A DNA stretch of 45,728 nucleotides from Anaerolineae bacterium (GTDB lineage: Bacteria; Chloroflexota; Anaerolineae; Promineifilales; Promineifilaceae), in NCBI GenBank assembly GCA_023954475.1, contig JAMLHW010000022.1:1-45728 (forward strand). Direction: 5' to 3'. The notes under the pieces were generated by a model, which was not told the origin of the DNA, did not search any database, and worked only from the letters and a program-made list of their open reading frames with translations. Below, piece after piece: positions 2,726-45,566 of the stretch; position 1 is the first letter of the stretch, and the number at the start of each line of letters is the position of its first letter. Both the position numbers and the translations under genes were made by a program.

Positions 2726-3007
2726 ATGAAGTTGTTTTTGGTCTCGTACTGGTCTGGACAGATGCAATAGTTATACTCGGTTGTCGGACAATTGGCACGT
2801 TTCGGCCGAAAATCCGGCATTCAAAGTCAAGCAGTAATAGTTGCAACAGGGCTTTTGCTACTGCTATCGAAAACCAATAATTCGAACCGTTTGTGTATCT
2901 GAAACTGGACTCTGGCGAAAAATATCGGTGTCAGCTTTTCTCTCATGGAACAATAGATGAATTTAAGCTGAATGGCAGAGGTGTACAGGCAAGGCTATCG
3001 AGGCAAC

Positions 3008-3283
3008 CTACGGCGATATGCCGGACGCTGAACGCAGCGCTGTAGCCAGATCGACCGTACTGATGGGTGCCTTGAGGACAATGGCGTTGCCCGTGTCGGC
3101 GTGACCGCCGTCAATTTCCAACACCGGAATCTGAAACCGGTAACGCACGAGCAGTTCGTGATCCTGCGCAATATCGACTTCCGTCAACTCGTGCGGGTAC
3201 ATGCGCCGGAACATGCGCAGTTGCACCTTGACCATGTCACATAACGTGCAATCTTCTTTGGTATAGAGCGTGATCCGGAGCAT
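3008..3283 (-). CDS. Glutaredoxin-like (DUF836-type) thiol-disulfide protein
   Basis: A 91-residue protein, MLRITLYTKEDCTLCDMVKV at the N-terminus, with a CTLC redox motif directly after the first beta strand. This is the thioredoxin-fold arrangement of the small glutaredoxin-like DUF836 family. The IPVLEIDG segment supplies the cis-proline strand expected in the fold. Probably a cytoplasmic dithiol oxidoreductase; the partner is unknown. The frame can be extended to a GTG at 3334, but the extra residues are unlike the family, so ATG 3283 is preferred. It is the last gene of the minus-strand series and lies 63 bp beyond the stop of the M64-type peptidase gene. The 188 bp between 2820 and 3007 show no gene. 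Confidence 0.75.
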   Translation of the reverse strand: MLRITLYTKEDCTLCDMVKVQLRMFRRMYPHELTEVDIAQDHELLVRYRFQIPVLEIDGGHADTGNAIVLKAPISTVDLATALRSASGISP

Positions 3284-3346
3284 GGCTGGCGCTGAGCGAG
3301 CAGCAGAGAGGCAACACGGATAGCGCCGCGTCACCTTGCCTCCACG

Positions 3347-4501
3347 TCATAATTCCGCGACCAGTCGCCATTGACGGGCCTGGCGCGTCGCCTGGATGAC
3401 ATCGGGTTTGCGCAACCACGGATGATGGTCTTCCAGCGTGCACGCAATTTGCCAGTGGGTGCGACCGCGGGCGGCGGCGGGCAACTGCAAAGTGAAGGGT
3501 TCGTAATCGTCGGTTTCCTGTGCCGTCAGCCAGCCGCGCTGTCCTTTTTGCTTGATGCGCCAGGTCGTGTGGATGTATTTCGGCCGAATAACATCTGCCT
3601 CAAACCGAATCTCCGCTCCATGCGGTACATGCAAGCTTTCTTCTGCCGGCGCAAATGAGTCTGCAATGGTGCTTTTGCGATAAATGCGCTTGATCCACTG
3701 CTCGCGACACACCGGACAGAACTGCGCATAATGCCGCTTCATAATGCAATCGACTGTCGGCCGATAGACGCCGTAATTCGTGTACCCGGCTCCCTCAAAT
3801 GCGCCGACGGTTGCTGGCGCGCATTGGTCTGCACCGGGCGTAGGGCATGCCGTTTCCTCATCCACCCACACTTTCCACTTAGGCTTTTTGCCGTTGGTCG
3901 TGATATTGGCAAACGGCAGAAAATTGGGCAGCGACCGCCCGGCAAAAAGCGTCAAATCGGGCAGTTCGCCCGTGTATTCGTCCATCAATTTGGCAATGGA
4001 GTGGCCCGCCTCGTGAATCATGATGCGCGGAAAATCATACGAGTTGCGCGACGCATAGCCGACACCCATCGTGAACAACGTCGCCCCGCCCCGACGCGGC
4101 GTATTGCAGACAACGAGTACGCTGTCCCACGGGACACCGGACTGATTGGCGACGTGCCACACCCATGGATCGGGTCCGACCAGGCGGCGCTCGGCAATGA
4201 ACGAAAAACGTGCGCCCAAAGCACTCTGCACTGAAACCGGCGGATCTTGCCACCGGTCATTGATACCCGATTGGCGCGAAATGACATCGACGCGATGGAA
4301 GTTAAAATGCCTGATGTAGCTCGCCATCGGTTCGACGGCGTGGAATTCGGCGACGATTTTGTCAGCGTCGGCGTAAAACAGCGGCATGTCGGCTTCCGCA
4401 TAGCCGTCGCCCATGATCGCGACATCGAGCCGGTTATCCGGTGACCCGTTGTCGATGAGTGTGGTGAAGCGGGGCGATCCCCAGGTGTAGCGTTTGGGCA
4501 T
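3347..4501 (-). CDS. M64 (IgA peptidase family) zinc metallopeptidase
   Basis: A 384-residue protein with the zinc motif HEAGHSIAKLMDEY at about 163-176, where His163, Glu164 and His167 match HExxH and the DEY segment supplies the further ligand seen in M64. Upstream, DVAIMGDGYAEADM (about 26-39) and VLVVCNTPRRGGA match the conserved opening strands of the M64 domain, so it is close to a bare catalytic domain. The residues after about 300 look like a beta-sandwich (EIRFEADVIRPKYIHTTWRI). No signal peptide is visible, which is odd for a family usually secreted; either the true start is elsewhere or the enzyme acts in the cytoplasm. It starts 7 bp after the luciferase-like gene. The substrate is unknown. 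Confidence 0.78.
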   Translation of the reverse strand: MPKRYTWGSPRFTTLIDNGSPDNRLDVAIMGDGYAEADMPLFYADADKIVAEFHAVEPMASYIRHFNFHRVDVISRQSGINDRWQDPPVSVQSALGARFSFIAERRLVGPDPWVWHVANQSGVPWDSVLVVCNTPRRGGATLFTMGVGYASRNSYDFPRIMIHEAGHSIAKLMDEYTGELPDLTLFAGRSLPNFLPFANITTNGKKPKWKVWVDEETACPTPGADQCAPATVGAFEGAGYTNYGVYRPTVDCIMKRHYAQFCPVCREQWIKRIYRKSTIADSFAPAEESLHVPHGAEIRFEADVIRPKYIHTTWRIKQKGQRGWLTAQETDDYEPFTLQLPAAARGRTHWQIACTLEDHHPWLRKPDVIQATRQARQWRLVAEL

Positions 4502-4508
4502 GGTGCAA

Positions 4509-5438
4509 TCAGTTTAGCTGTGGCAGCACAGAAGCGGCGAATTGTTCCAATCCGTCTGTATCGTCGAGGTCGAGCCATTGTAACATGAGGCGCTGCACCC
4601 CAACTGCGGCATAGCGGCCGATATGGTCGACAATTTCAGCGGCGCTACCGACCATCAGGCCCCCGCTGCGCAGTCGTTCGACGGTTGAGCCGCCGTATAG
4701 ACCGGCCTTATGTGCGAGATCGGCTTCGTTTCGGCCGAAAACCAGGCCCGTCATCAACGAACGGCGCACGCTGCTGCGTTCACGTCCCTGAGTGTCGAGC
4801 AACGCATCGAGCCGCGCACTGCGTTCCGCAAAAATCTCCGGCGGAATAAAAACGCCATTCCATTCATCCGCAAAACGGGCCACCAGCGGCAGCGTCCGTC
4901 TGGGGCCGTTGCCGCCAATCAAAATCGGCGGGCCACCTGCTCGCGCCGGTCGCGGCAACATAATCGCATCCTTCAAGGTGTAGTAGCTACCTTCAAAGCT
5001 GGATGGTTCATCATTGCGCAGCAGCCGCGTGATCACTTCCAGCCCTTCCTCAAAACGGGCAAAGCGCTCAGGAATGTCTAACAGGTCCCAGCCGAAATTG
5101 GTATGTTCGCGCACTTGCCAGCCCGCGCCGACGCCCAGTGACAGCCGTCCGCCGGACAAATCGTCGACGGCCGTCGCCATACGCGCCGTCATCGTCGGAT
5201 CGCGGAACGAGACGGGCGACACCAGCGGCGCAAATTCGATGCGCTCGGTGTTGTCGGCCAGCCACGTCAGTGATACCCACAATTCCAGCGAATCCTTATC
5301 CGGCGGATTGGCGTTGGTGTAATGGTCGGAACGGTAGAGACCGGCAAAACCGGCGTCTTCGACTGTGCGCACGATGCGCTGCCAGCTCGTCCAGTTTAGA
5401 CCGTCCTGCCCTTCAATCATGATGGCGATTTCTGTCAT
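4509..5438 (-). CDS. Luciferase-like (LLM class) F420/flavin-dependent oxidoreductase
   Basis: A 309-residue TIM-barrel protein of the bacterial luciferase superfamily. It shows the N-terminal strand EIAIMIEGQDGLNW, then DAGFAGLYRSDHY, VSPVSFRDPTMTARMATAVD and the signature LSGGRLSLGVGAGWQVREH, followed by PILIGGNGPRRTLPL. These match the F420-dependent LLM class (glucose-6-phosphate dehydrogenase and methylene-tetrahydromethanopterin-reductase relatives). The exact cofactor (F420 or FMN) and substrate cannot be read. It lies between gatB and the M64 peptidase on the same strand, separated from gatB by a palindromic repeat. Length is normal. Confidence 0.85.
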   Translation of the reverse strand: MTEIAIMIEGQDGLNWTSWQRIVRTVEDAGFAGLYRSDHYTNANPPDKDSLELWVSLTWLADNTERIEFAPLVSPVSFRDPTMTARMATAVDDLSGGRLSLGVGAGWQVREHTNFGWDLLDIPERFARFEEGLEVITRLLRNDEPSSFEGSYYTLKDAIMLPRPARAGGPPILIGGNGPRRTLPLVARFADEWNGVFIPPEIFAERSARLDALLDTQGRERSSVRRSLMTGLVFGRNEADLAHKAGLYGGSTVERLRSGGLMVGSAAEIVDHIGRYAAVGVQRLMLQWLDLDDTDGLEQFAASVLPQLN

Positions 5439-45090: not shown

Positions 45091-45154
45091 AAGACATTGA
45101 GATTGTCTGGTTGGTGCGTACAAGAGACGCGCTTCACAGAAAAGGGAACAGGGT

Positions 45155-45421
45155 ATGGCAGAAAAAGAGGAAAAAATTGAGGTAGAGGGTGTCGTCGTTG
45201 AGTCGCTACCCAACACGCAATTTACAGTAGAGCTAGAAAATGGACATCAAGTCCTAGCTTATTTGTCAGGAAAGATGCGCAAACGGTATATTCGCGTTCT
45301 ACTTGGTGATCGCGTGCGTGTGGAAATGACACCTTACGATTTGACACGTGGCCGCATTACATGGCGCTACCGTAAGCAGACGAACTTTCCCAGCCAAACT
45401 TCGCAAACAAAACGCCGGTAG
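45155..45421 (+). CDS. infA: Translation initiation factor IF-1
   Basis: S1-type OB-fold protein that occupies the ribosomal A site during initiation. [60 protein letters not shown] and [13 protein letters not shown] match the whole IF-1 family. It is 88 residues, about 15 longer than usual, owing to a Ser/Thr/Lys-rich C-terminal tail ([15 protein letters not shown]). It lies 64 bp after the S1 gene, on the same strand. Confidence 0.97.
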
Positions 45422-45524
45422 ACTATTGCCATTGGCACTAGGTAACCGAACGCTGGCACGACCAAGTGTCAGTGATTCATGTACGTAATTAACATAACTG
45501 CAGTTACACTGTGAGTGATGTGCA

Positions 45525-45551
45525 AGAGCGATTAGAAATCGCTCTTTTTTT
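45525..45551 (+). terminator. Intrinsic terminator after infA
   Basis: AGAGCGAT pairs with ATCGCTCT over a 5-base loop, followed by a T run that merges into a TCGGCCGA octamer at 45551. It is 103 bp beyond the infA stop and 16 bp from the prmA stop on the other strand. Confidence 0.8.
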
Positions 45552-45566
45552 CGGCCGATAATCCCA

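Follow-up and report, generated by a model that had tools for sequence, protein, structure and literature searches.

A genome-wide highly iterated palindrome with several dialects in a family of Anaerolineae

The subject of this study is a 45,728-bp stretch of DNA of an Anaerolineae bacterium (assembly GCA_023954475.1, contig JAMLHW010000022.1, positions 1 to 45,728; hereafter the window), which is pervaded by the GC-rich octamer TCGGCCGA, a word identical to its own reverse complement. Our analysis confirmed that the excess of this palindrome is real, genome-wide and widespread in the family (Promineifilaceae), and that it is stronger than an earlier note on this DNA could know. That note, which had no view of the dialects, had proposed a system resembling the highly iterated palindrome HIP1 of cyanobacteria. 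The proposal has held, as the palindrome occurs throughout the genome above Markov and codon-shuffle expectations, relatives carry the same or sister words, and sites of a sister word are conserved in place. A system of the highly iterated palindrome (HIP) class, distinct from HIP1, is supported by this behaviour, with a methylase as a candidate agent; a methylation target, a guide for mismatch repair or recombination, and a nucleoid-protein site, all suggested in the note, are candidate roles.

Results

Abundance of the palindrome in the window and in the genome

TCGGCCGA occurs exactly 63 times in the window (2802 to 45558, listed without strand), i.e. once per 726 bp, which agrees with the approximately 62 copies reported earlier. 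The copies start at positions 2802, 3580, 3757, 4731, 5731, 6335, 6451, 7306, 7914, 8419, 8851, 9161, 10109, 11253, 11271, 11648, 12131, 12619, 12795, 13789, 14382, 14565, 14794, 15298, 15681, 16659, 17169, 19662, 20596, 22292, 23338, 23486, 23667, 24460, 25347, 25621, 26250, 27948, 28698, 29742, 30010, 30632, 30801, 31428, 32153, 32336, 33802, 34320, 34963, 35380, 36337, 36844, 37854, 38285, 39980, 40193, 40772, 41378, 42076, 42650, 42974, 43721 and 45551 (the last copy being 45551–45558).

Open reading frames (ORFs) of the window were called mechanically by a greedy, longest-first rule. Fifty-four copies fall inside these ORFs, on both strands and in all frames (32, 15 and 7 in frames 0, 1 and 2), and nine lie outside them, at 2802–2809, 13789–13796, 15298–15305, 31428–31435, 38285–38292, 39980–39987, 41378–41385, 42076–42083 and 42974–42981; the copy at 15298 is inside a 213-aa ORF (15189–15830) missed by the greedy calls, so it is probably coding. 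Of the seven sites previously described as intergenic, five (13789, 31428, 41378, 42076 and 42974) are outside the ORF calls, while those at 15681 and 45551 are inside mechanical ORFs, a disagreement that is not decisive because the starts, or the reality, of these two ORFs are doubtful.

The genome containing the window (designated G000; 5,120,153 bases in 26 contigs) carries 7,668 copies of TCGGCCGA (1,498 per Mb, one per 668 bp), compared with 125 copies of a control word composed of its letters in reversed order. The excess therefore reaches beyond the window and is not a local peculiarity of it. Markov models were based on the window and 20 stretches of 20 kb (445,728 bp in total), in which 660 copies were observed vs 9.3, 11.7, 30 and 35 expected under models of order 0, 1, 2 and 3, respectively, so that the frequency is far from Markov expectation. 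The order-0 ratio of observed to expected copies (O/E) is 71; the higher-order expectations are inflated because TCGGCCGA itself feeds the model, and the maximal-order expectation was unusable, since the palindrome inflates its own sub-words. Each of the 20 stretches contains 1.0–2.0 copies per kb. Among octamers with at least 40 copies in this sample, TCGGCCGA ranks first by order-3 O/E, and the next palindromic octamer has at most 39 copies.

In a larger sample of G000 (565,728 bp), 712 of the 816 copies (53 of 63 in the window) are flanked by A/T on both sides, and the favoured word is therefore longer, WTCGGCCGAW. HIP1 (GCGATCGC) is at background level in the same DNA (10 copies), in accordance with the earlier remark that the two sequences differ.

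Codon usage, protein composition and intergenic DNA

The sample of 565,728 bp consisted of the window and 26 stretches, six of which were picked around methylase or rpoB genes; the longest-first rule called 487 ORFs in it, some of which may be false. Coding DNA contains 690 copies of TCGGCCGA (425, 158 and 107 in frames 0, 1 and 2), compared with 49.5 expected from a genome-wide shuffle of synonymous codons (10 shuffles), which upholds the earlier view that codon or protein bias does not explain the palindrome. The 24 words with one mismatch (near misses) were under-represented in coding DNA (290 observed vs 455 expected), most deeply at those two positions where a near miss in frame 0 is one silent change away from the palindrome (18 vs 79 and 23 vs 95), with all three kinds of base change at 0.18–0.38 of expectation. 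In HIP1, one-base deviations concentrate at the first and last positions; here, coding mismatches at position 1 of the octamer numbered 93 vs 62.5, those at position 8 numbered 58 vs 68, all six inner positions were below expectation, and intergenic counts were too small for this comparison.

Frame 0 is close to saturation: Ser-Ala-Asp/Glu is spelled TCG-GCC-GA, i.e. with TCGGCCGA, in 425 of 485 cases (88%), and outside such tripeptide contexts TCG and GCC account for 36% and 34% of their respective codon boxes. Permitted peptide contexts carry the site in 158 of 293 cases in frame 1 and in 107 of 184 in frame 2. The tripeptide Ser-Ala-Asp/Glu is itself present at 2.9 times the dipeptide expectation (Ala-Ser-Asp/Glu, Ser-Gly-Asp/Glu and Thr-Ala-Asp/Glu, used for comparison, at 1.03, 0.97 and 0.68), which amounts to 317 extra tripeptides in 492 kb of coding DNA and, by extrapolation, to the order of 3,000 amino-acid positions in the genome shifted to permit the site. 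The palindrome in turn shapes proteins, and thus provides an example of a DNA motif altering protein composition.

In 75,746 intergenic bases we found 126 copies vs 1.1 expected (an approximately 116-fold excess), with one-mismatch words (31 vs 25.6) and two-mismatch words (277 vs 267) in little or no excess.

Dialects of the palindrome across the family

Counting was extended to 59 genomes including G000 and, for ACGGCCGT, to 52 species of the family (22 genera, G000 included), and many of the relatives were found to carry an excess of the same word or a sister word. TCGGCCGA, counted in 35 of the 52 species, is abundant in only two of these 35, namely G000 and G031 (9,414 copies), and moderate in G016 (1,326), followed by G025 (925) and G005 (771). 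The most widespread word is ACGGCCGT, with 2,887–15,176 copies in 28 of the 52 species and 13 of the 22 genera. Genome G030 (2,887 copies among 8,507 CGGCCG) was counted among the ACGGCCGT genomes; G025 (2,982 copies) was not, as these make up just 15% of its 19,906 CGGCCG. ACGGCCGT is flanked mostly by A in four of the five genomes examined, and G021 shows no preference. A third lineage uses GCGGCCGC (65 copies in a sample of 43,640 bp of G013), and TGCCGGCA, with a mirrored core, was found in G010 (3,665 copies). The common core of the dialects is CGGCCG, with varying outer bases. The bare hexamer CGGCCG is in strong excess in G005, G016 (21,019 copies vs 132 of GCCGGC) and G025, and in weak excess in genera g4 and g20; no hexamer excess was seen in G008, G027 and G020. 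G008, G019 and G020 were examined in larger samples, and samples L024 and L035, composed entirely of N, contribute no dialect.

Outside the family, the ratio of CGGCCG to GCCGGC is 1.3 to 1.8 in four genomes of the sister family and 0.04 to 1.9 in 20 genomes that belong to the class but to other families, and neither TCGGCCGA nor ACGGCCGT exceeds 451 copies in any of these 24 genomes.

In an RpoB tree of 35 genomes (built by a quick method, with several weak inner branches), all 20 ACGGCCGT rows fall into one group of 24 rows (support 97), together with G020 and genus g4, and G000 groups with G031 and G016 (support 99). By our own scoring, nine dialect changes are needed on this tree.

The dialects leave their mark on proteins as well. 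In sampled DNA of G024 and G060, Thr-Ala-Val is spelled ACG-GCC-GT, i.e. with ACGGCCGT, in 97–98% of cases (228 of 232 and 131 of 135), and the tripeptide is present at 3.5 and 4.0 times expectation, respectively. In G031, Ser-Ala-Asp/Glu is spelled TCG-GCC-GA in 95 of 107 cases, and in G013 Ala-Ala-Ala is spelled GCG-GCC-GC (GCGGCCGC) in 37 of 44. Coding near misses were below expectation in all five relatives analyzed (0.66 in G024, 0.62 in G060, 0.93 in G031, 0.47 in G016 and 0.36 in G013). Intergenic near misses numbered 22 vs 10.4 in G024, 9 vs 5.2 in G060, 5 vs 4.9 in G031, 23 vs 32.1 in G016 and 3 vs 2.3 in G013, i.e. there may be a mild intergenic excess in the two ACGGCCGT genomes G024 and G060.

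Counts of the mirrored hexamer were also recorded. GCCGGC is rare in G013 (51 copies in 8.0 Mb), G016 (132 in 4.1 Mb), G025, G031, G002, G004, G024, G026, G011 and G006, and in the TGCCGGCA genome G010 there are 447 CGGCCG vs 7,315 GCCGGC. Within genus g16, G030 has 2,887 copies of ACGGCCGT vs 6,777 in the smaller genome of G015, and possibly represents a decaying dialect.

Strength of the force and spacing of sites

For a word favoured solely when perfect, a balance of mutation with selection or drive leaves near misses at background and raises the perfect word by a factor of e^B. From intergenic DNA of G000 we obtained B = 4.75, i.e. ln(126/1.09), and from silent positions, corrected for codon usage, 4.73. 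The silent-position values in relatives were 4.95 (G031), 5.94 (G024), 5.54 (G060), 5.96 (G013), 5.01 (G001) and 4.21 (G017), those of G013, G001 and G017 being based on 44, 51 and 45 tripeptides, with half a count assumed for G013, where no one-change form was seen. The force is real, with log-odds of 4–6 (4.2–6.0 across the seven genomes), and since the intergenic and silent-position values agree, it looks alike inside and outside the genes of G000 and across dialects.

Intervals between copies follow a nearly exponential distribution in which short ones are too few. A model of independent thinning predicts 24.8 ± 3.8 pairs closer than 50 bp, compared with 13 observed, and agrees with the classes up to 400 bp; no regular spacing was found beyond this deficit. 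We also analyzed conversion, i.e. the share of peptide contexts permitting a site that carry one, as a function of distance to the neighbouring copy (in ORFs of 250 aa or longer, excluding contexts that lay less than 12 bp from another copy or no more than 1.5 kb from the end of a stretch). Pooled conversion was 44% below 50 bp, 67% at 50–100 bp, 72% at 100–200 bp, 78% at 200–400 bp, 80% at 400–800 bp and 77% above 800 bp, and the median distance was 302 bp for converted vs 207.5 bp for unconverted contexts (p = 0.0002). The effect was clearest in frame 1 (38% at 100–200 bp vs 70–75% at 200–800 bp), weak in frame 0 (p = 0.023) and absent from frame 2 (p = 0.38). Because short pairs are depleted and conversion is flat further out, what is observed is a short-range exclusion, with little demand-driven spacing past approximately 200 bp.

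Conservation of sites in place

The earlier note had suggested testing conservation of site positions in alignments. For the sister word ACGGCCGT, we aligned two relatives, G024 and G060 (26,230 columns of approximately 200,000 bp, in 12 blocks with a mean identity of 78.8%). Sites were intact in the other genome in 38 of 45 cases in either direction, compared with 19.7% for all octamers and 17.5% for octamers with six G/C; the same core with different outer bases was kept in 10 of 32 cases. Among lost sites, one-mismatch states were seen 0 times in one direction and twice in the other.

In rpoB, 1,264 of 2,106 comparisons among 19 ACGGCCGT genomes found a shared core position, whereas permitted positions elsewhere gave 842 of 3,866. 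In contrast, cores of G000 occur at core positions of ACGGCCGT genomes in 11 of 55 cases vs 66 of 177 elsewhere, and those of G031 in 8 of 41 vs 70 of 199; with cores of the hexamer genomes there is instead a tendency to coincide (8 of 9 cases vs 16 of 28 for G000, and 3 of 3 vs 8 of 12 for G031 with G016). The rpoB numbers are small and non-independent. Because G000 and G031 cores do not coincide with those of ACGGCCGT genomes, a change of dialect relative to these genomes seems to replace sites, not to edit them in place; a swap of outer bases at the same sites was not seen in rpoB against the 19 ACGGCCGT genomes (few sites, non-independent). As regards the loci themselves, a simple motif search recognized no rpoC beside rpoB in 35 loci, many of which end within a few kb, and the G000 locus (L126; G000:C23:126501–146500) continues with fusA-like and tuf-like genes.

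Palindrome-free stretches

Sampled DNA contains seven palindrome-free stretches longer than 3.3 kb, three of which include methylase genes: one is an island with a C5 methylase (5.1 kb, 38% GC, zero palindromes), another holds a split N4-methylase, and the third a restriction-modification pair of the EcoRV type. Glycosyltransferase-like and polysaccharide-export-like genes (identified by eye) were seen in two adjoining stretches, one other carries a large cation-ATPase-like gene with ordinary GC content, and in the longest (6.1 kb) no gene was identified. The association with methylases is biased, because four of the seven stretches come from DNA chosen for its methylases. Several palindrome-free stretches look recently acquired, and absence of the palindrome may mark recently acquired genes. 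In the window, positions 1–2801 are free of TCGGCCGA and cover a gene for HsdM, the methylase of a type I restriction-modification system (1124–2767, minus strand; Pfam N6_Mtase, 5.6e-105, and HsdM_N; no copies inside); some of the other restriction-modification genes in G000 likewise lie in palindrome-free DNA.

The island with the C5 methylase (L070:10568–15127, on G000:C20) continues with a protein of 793 aa, which has two HATPase domains, and with a response-regulator-like protein; it looks like a defence island. The EcoRV-type pair is at L162:7971–9732 (G000:C9), and an EcoO109I-type pair at L071:8960–10394 (G000:C21).

Search for the agent

Several methylase families were considered as the common agent and rejected. 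C5 methylases (PF00145) had no match in 37 of the 59 genomes searched (G000 being one of the 59), and many of these 37 have the palindrome; the sole C5 methylase of G000 is the one in the palindrome-free stretch. Canonical N4/N6 methylases (PF01555) are patchy, and the best one of G000 adjoins the EcoO109I-type endonuclease. D12 methylases (PF02086) occur irrespective of the palindrome, in 34 of 39 genomes of the family; G000 has two, one beside the EcoRV-type endonuclease and one Dam-like (G000:C23:205 kb; 2.5e-88 to the DNA adenine methylase structure 2g1p, which we take to be Dam of Escherichia coli). EcoO109I recognizes RGGNCCY and EcoRV GATATC, i.e. sites other than the palindrome. The gene of the Dam-like enzyme carries the palindrome inside, and GATC, its expected site, is absent from every dialect. 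A 483-aa permuted N4-type enzyme (L209; no palindrome inside) and a 966-aa frame with a PF01555 match (L202) were also recorded. MutL does not discriminate either, being present in 48 of 52 family genomes regardless of the palindrome (the four misses are genomes 69–83% complete).

The best candidate agent, a lead and not a result, is an apparently orphan Zn-ribbon methylase of 650–700 aa. It has Cys pairs, a permuted arrangement of PF01555 motifs and a match to DUF1156 below threshold; no endonuclease was noticed beside it in the loci examined. Matches at E ≤ 0.001 were obtained in 47 of the 59 genomes, many of them reflecting only short general methylase similarity, and orthologues (full or partial) were therefore defined by E below 1e-70. 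Of the 32 family genomes that the tree includes, 24 have one. Orthologues were scored in 20 of the 22 octamer genomes, compared with 4 of the 10 others (Fisher p = 0.005); restricting the comparison to genomes at least 90% complete gives 15 of 16 vs 4 of 9 (p = 0.012). The two octamer genomes on the tree without an orthologue are G011 and G010 (62% complete). Among ACGGCCGT genomes outside the tree, G001 and G015 have the methylase and G002 lacks it. The three strong hexamer genomes lack it as well.

Nineteen ACGGCCGT loci with the Zn-ribbon methylase (gene and some flank) contain 73 palindromes in 34.5 kb, and copies occur in the gene itself in G031 (3 in 1.9 kb), G000 (4 in a 1.2-kb piece) and G013 (1 in 1.9 kb), so the gene is a long-term resident. 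In a tree of the enzyme (17 rows, with G003 and G023 left out), genera are not strictly followed and the G031 row is very long.

Discussion

Comparison with known systems

The over-represented short words Chi and KOPS have a dedicated reader and are oriented and non-palindromic; TCGGCCGA resembles them in being an over-represented short word but, as a palindrome, lacks orientation. The known DNA uptake sequences (DUS) and uptake signal sequences (USS) are not palindromic either, in contrast to the word described here, although they share its high density and occurrence in dialects. USS flanks are A/T-rich, as here; one-mismatch forms of DUS and USS are over-represented according to the consulted parts of PMC1939737, whereas here they are not clearly so.

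The closest parallel is HIP1, first described in 1995 (via PMC1939737). As reported in the consulted parts of Elhai (2015; PMC4390886), HIP1 (GCGATCGC) and its alternates TCGATCGA, GGGATCCC and GGCGCC occur in 97 cyanobacteria at 300–2,700 copies per Mb, with O/E of 55–228 by base composition, and each genome with a highly over-represented word has at least one putative methylase, although some HIP1 genomes lack a CGATCG enzyme; a GmeC-dependent repair ratchet was proposed. PMC6604393, in the parts consulted, gives selection as the presumed reason for the persistence of HIP1, with several functions proposed and none settled. It also reports double methylation of CGATCG in Synechocystis and, in this organism, an orphan GGCC N4-methylcytosine (m4C) methylase, M.Ssp6803II, outside restriction systems, with effects on transcription, replication and repair.

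TCGGCCGA is likewise a GC-rich octameric palindrome found in genes and spacers, with an abundance and O/E within Elhai's ranges; its alternates keep the core and swap outer bases, as TCGATCGA does on the HIP1 core, and the genome encodes a Dam-like methylase. The differences are that the core is CGGCCG and not CGATCG or GATC, so that a GATC enzyme would not read the palindrome, that ACGGCCGT fills 13 genera with other dialects and the bare hexamer beside it in one family, and that the cognate methylase is a candidate only. The central GGCC is shared with the site of M.Ssp6803II, but bare GGCC is not the favoured word here. We found no report of HIPs outside cyanobacteria, or of TCGGCCGA as an over-represented word, among titles and abstract openings of the open-licence literature, and the terms 'chloroflex', 'other bacteria' and 'outside cyanobacteria' are absent from the text of PMC4390886 as consulted. 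The kind of system is known from cyanobacteria; as far as these searches go, its occurrence in another lineage, on a different core and in several dialects, is new.

Possible mechanism and alternative explanations

The reading that we favour, while giving it slightly less than an even chance, is that TCGGCCGA is the local dialect of a family-wide HIP system maintained by a force at the DNA level, most likely with an orphan methylase as the reader. Such a force would favour the exact palindrome (core CGGCCG with dialect bases outside) in resident DNA, and with a scaled strength of approximately 4–6 log units nearly all silently permitted frame-0 positions would carry a site and many amino-acid positions would be shifted so as to permit one. 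Presumably a protein recognizes the palindrome as a symmetric whole and in a nearly all-or-none manner; this would most likely be a resident orphan DNA methylase (the candidate being the Zn-ribbon, DUF1156-like N4/N6 enzyme) acting together with a user of the mark. Should the contacts of the reader outside CGGCCG change, old sites would decay and new ones accumulate, and the dialect would switch. A bolder and distinctly less probable version, which we regard as speculative, is that of a second, independently evolved HIP: an orphan Zn-ribbon methylase and a partner would write and read the CGGCCG-core palindrome, and changes in the outer contacts would switch the dialect (A..T, T..A, G..C or none), turning over thousands of sites and shifting the usage of Thr-Ala-Val, Ser-Ala-Asp/Glu and Ala-Ala-Ala proteome-wide.

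Several observations weigh against a maintained system read by this methylase. Selection for the site and molecular drive yield identical statistics, and conversion in frames 1 and 2 is merely 54% and 58%. In rpoB, G000 cores match those of hexamer genomes in 8 of 9 cases vs 16 of 28, so that a positional memory toward these genomes is possible. Searches of the hexamer genome G005 with PF00145, PF01555 and PF02086 gave no match at E ≤ 0.001 (two to PF01555 at E of approximately 0.1). The Zn-ribbon methylase is lacking from two ACGGCCGT genomes, G011 (95% complete) and G002 (78% complete), and is present without an abundant octamer in G003, G023, G019, G027 and three genomes of the sister family. 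In G000 itself its gene is read in two overlapping frames (L215 and L240; G000:C1:577107–579033), which may reflect an assembly error or a real break. Controlled for kinship, the comparison comes down to three pairs, of which on average 1.8 agree, 0.2 oppose and 1.0 are uninformative (p approximately 0.5); with only three supported independent pairs such a test is unable to reach significance. The orphan methyltransferase that the earlier note had recommended looking for exists as a candidate, but its association with the palindrome is unable to attain significance once kinship is allowed for.

Among the alternatives, the repair ratchet of Elhai's model, in which a newly methylated perfect site makes mismatch repair take its strand as parental so that gains of sites are kept and losses undone, appears unlikely. 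All three base changes are depleted at the silent positions of frame 0 (0.18–0.38), as general mismatch repair could achieve, MutL is present in 48 of 52 family genomes and a Dam-like methylase is resident in G000; yet MutL is equally present in palindrome-free genomes. The saturation at one site per approximately 1000 nt described in the consulted parts of Elhai's article predicts fewer conversions up to approximately 1000 bp, whereas pooled conversion is 72, 78, 80 and 77% from 100–200 bp to above 800 bp, although a shorter-range dependence does exist (44% below 50 bp and 67% at 50–100 bp; p = 0.0002). Even less probable, in our opinion, is a nucleoid or chromosome-organizing protein for which the palindrome would be a binding site of small fitness benefit, maintained by ordinary selection without methylation. 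A scaled strength of approximately 5 is attainable by weak selection in large populations, the depletion of pairs below 50 bp (13 vs 24.8 ± 3.8) is what a footprint would give, and WTCGGCCGAW is longer than what most modification enzymes read. Against this, spacing is not regular beyond 50 bp, saturation of frame 0 exceeds the needs of an architectural grid, and no candidate protein turned up, although no search was aimed at one.

Lower still we would rank a drive by DNA uptake, as with DUS of Neisseria and USS of Haemophilus, in which a receptor prefers DNA with the palindrome, recombination spreads it and dialects follow changes of the receptor. The dialects do resemble those of DUS in Neisseriaceae, and the palindrome is missing from foreign-looking stretches. 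The A/T next to the core has its parallel in the USS consensus given in the consulted parts of PMC1939737, and the intergenic one-mismatch excess in G024 and G060 would fit, as would the short-range effect of distance. However, one site per imported fragment would be enough, yet pooled conversion is flat past 100–200 bp, and one-mismatch forms, unlike those of DUS and USS, are not clearly enriched in G000 (31 vs 25.6) and G031 (5 vs 4.9). An origin in mutation, codon or protein bias or an assembly artefact, with no site-specific force, is refuted. The share of TCG and GCC in their codon boxes (36% and 34%) is in its favour, but the codon-shuffle expectation is 14 times too low, the excess is approximately 116-fold in intergenic DNA, the site occurs in all three coding frames, sister words with different outer bases appear in relatives that were assembled separately, and in an alignment such sister-word sites stay where they are.

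Implications and other observations

Relatives that have lost, reduced or changed the palindrome (G016 beside G031, G030 beside G015) constitute natural experiments, in which any gene whose distribution follows the dialect is a candidate reader. Because saturation is nearly complete, the force can be measured in many genomes and compared between coding and intergenic DNA. For methods that rely on codon usage or detect horizontal transfer, the palindrome calls for caution.

A further iterated palindrome may exist in Chloroflexi. According to Tables 2 and 3 of PMC6329791, the draft genome BD1 from Lake Biwa (approximately 2.9 Mb) contains 77,932 GCWGC, 93% of them with m4C, and a methylase was assigned to the site; by a rough estimate this is approximately four times expectation.

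Two proteins encoded in the window are also worth recording. The region 31526–33544 encodes a 672-aa protein apparently composed, as judged by eye, of three tandem DsbA-like thioredoxin units (CPYC, CPFC and CPYC), and 43333–45090 a protein similar to ribosomal protein S1, the long acidic tail of which is repetitive, with many repeats of the TDEVVDTVVETTDDV type.

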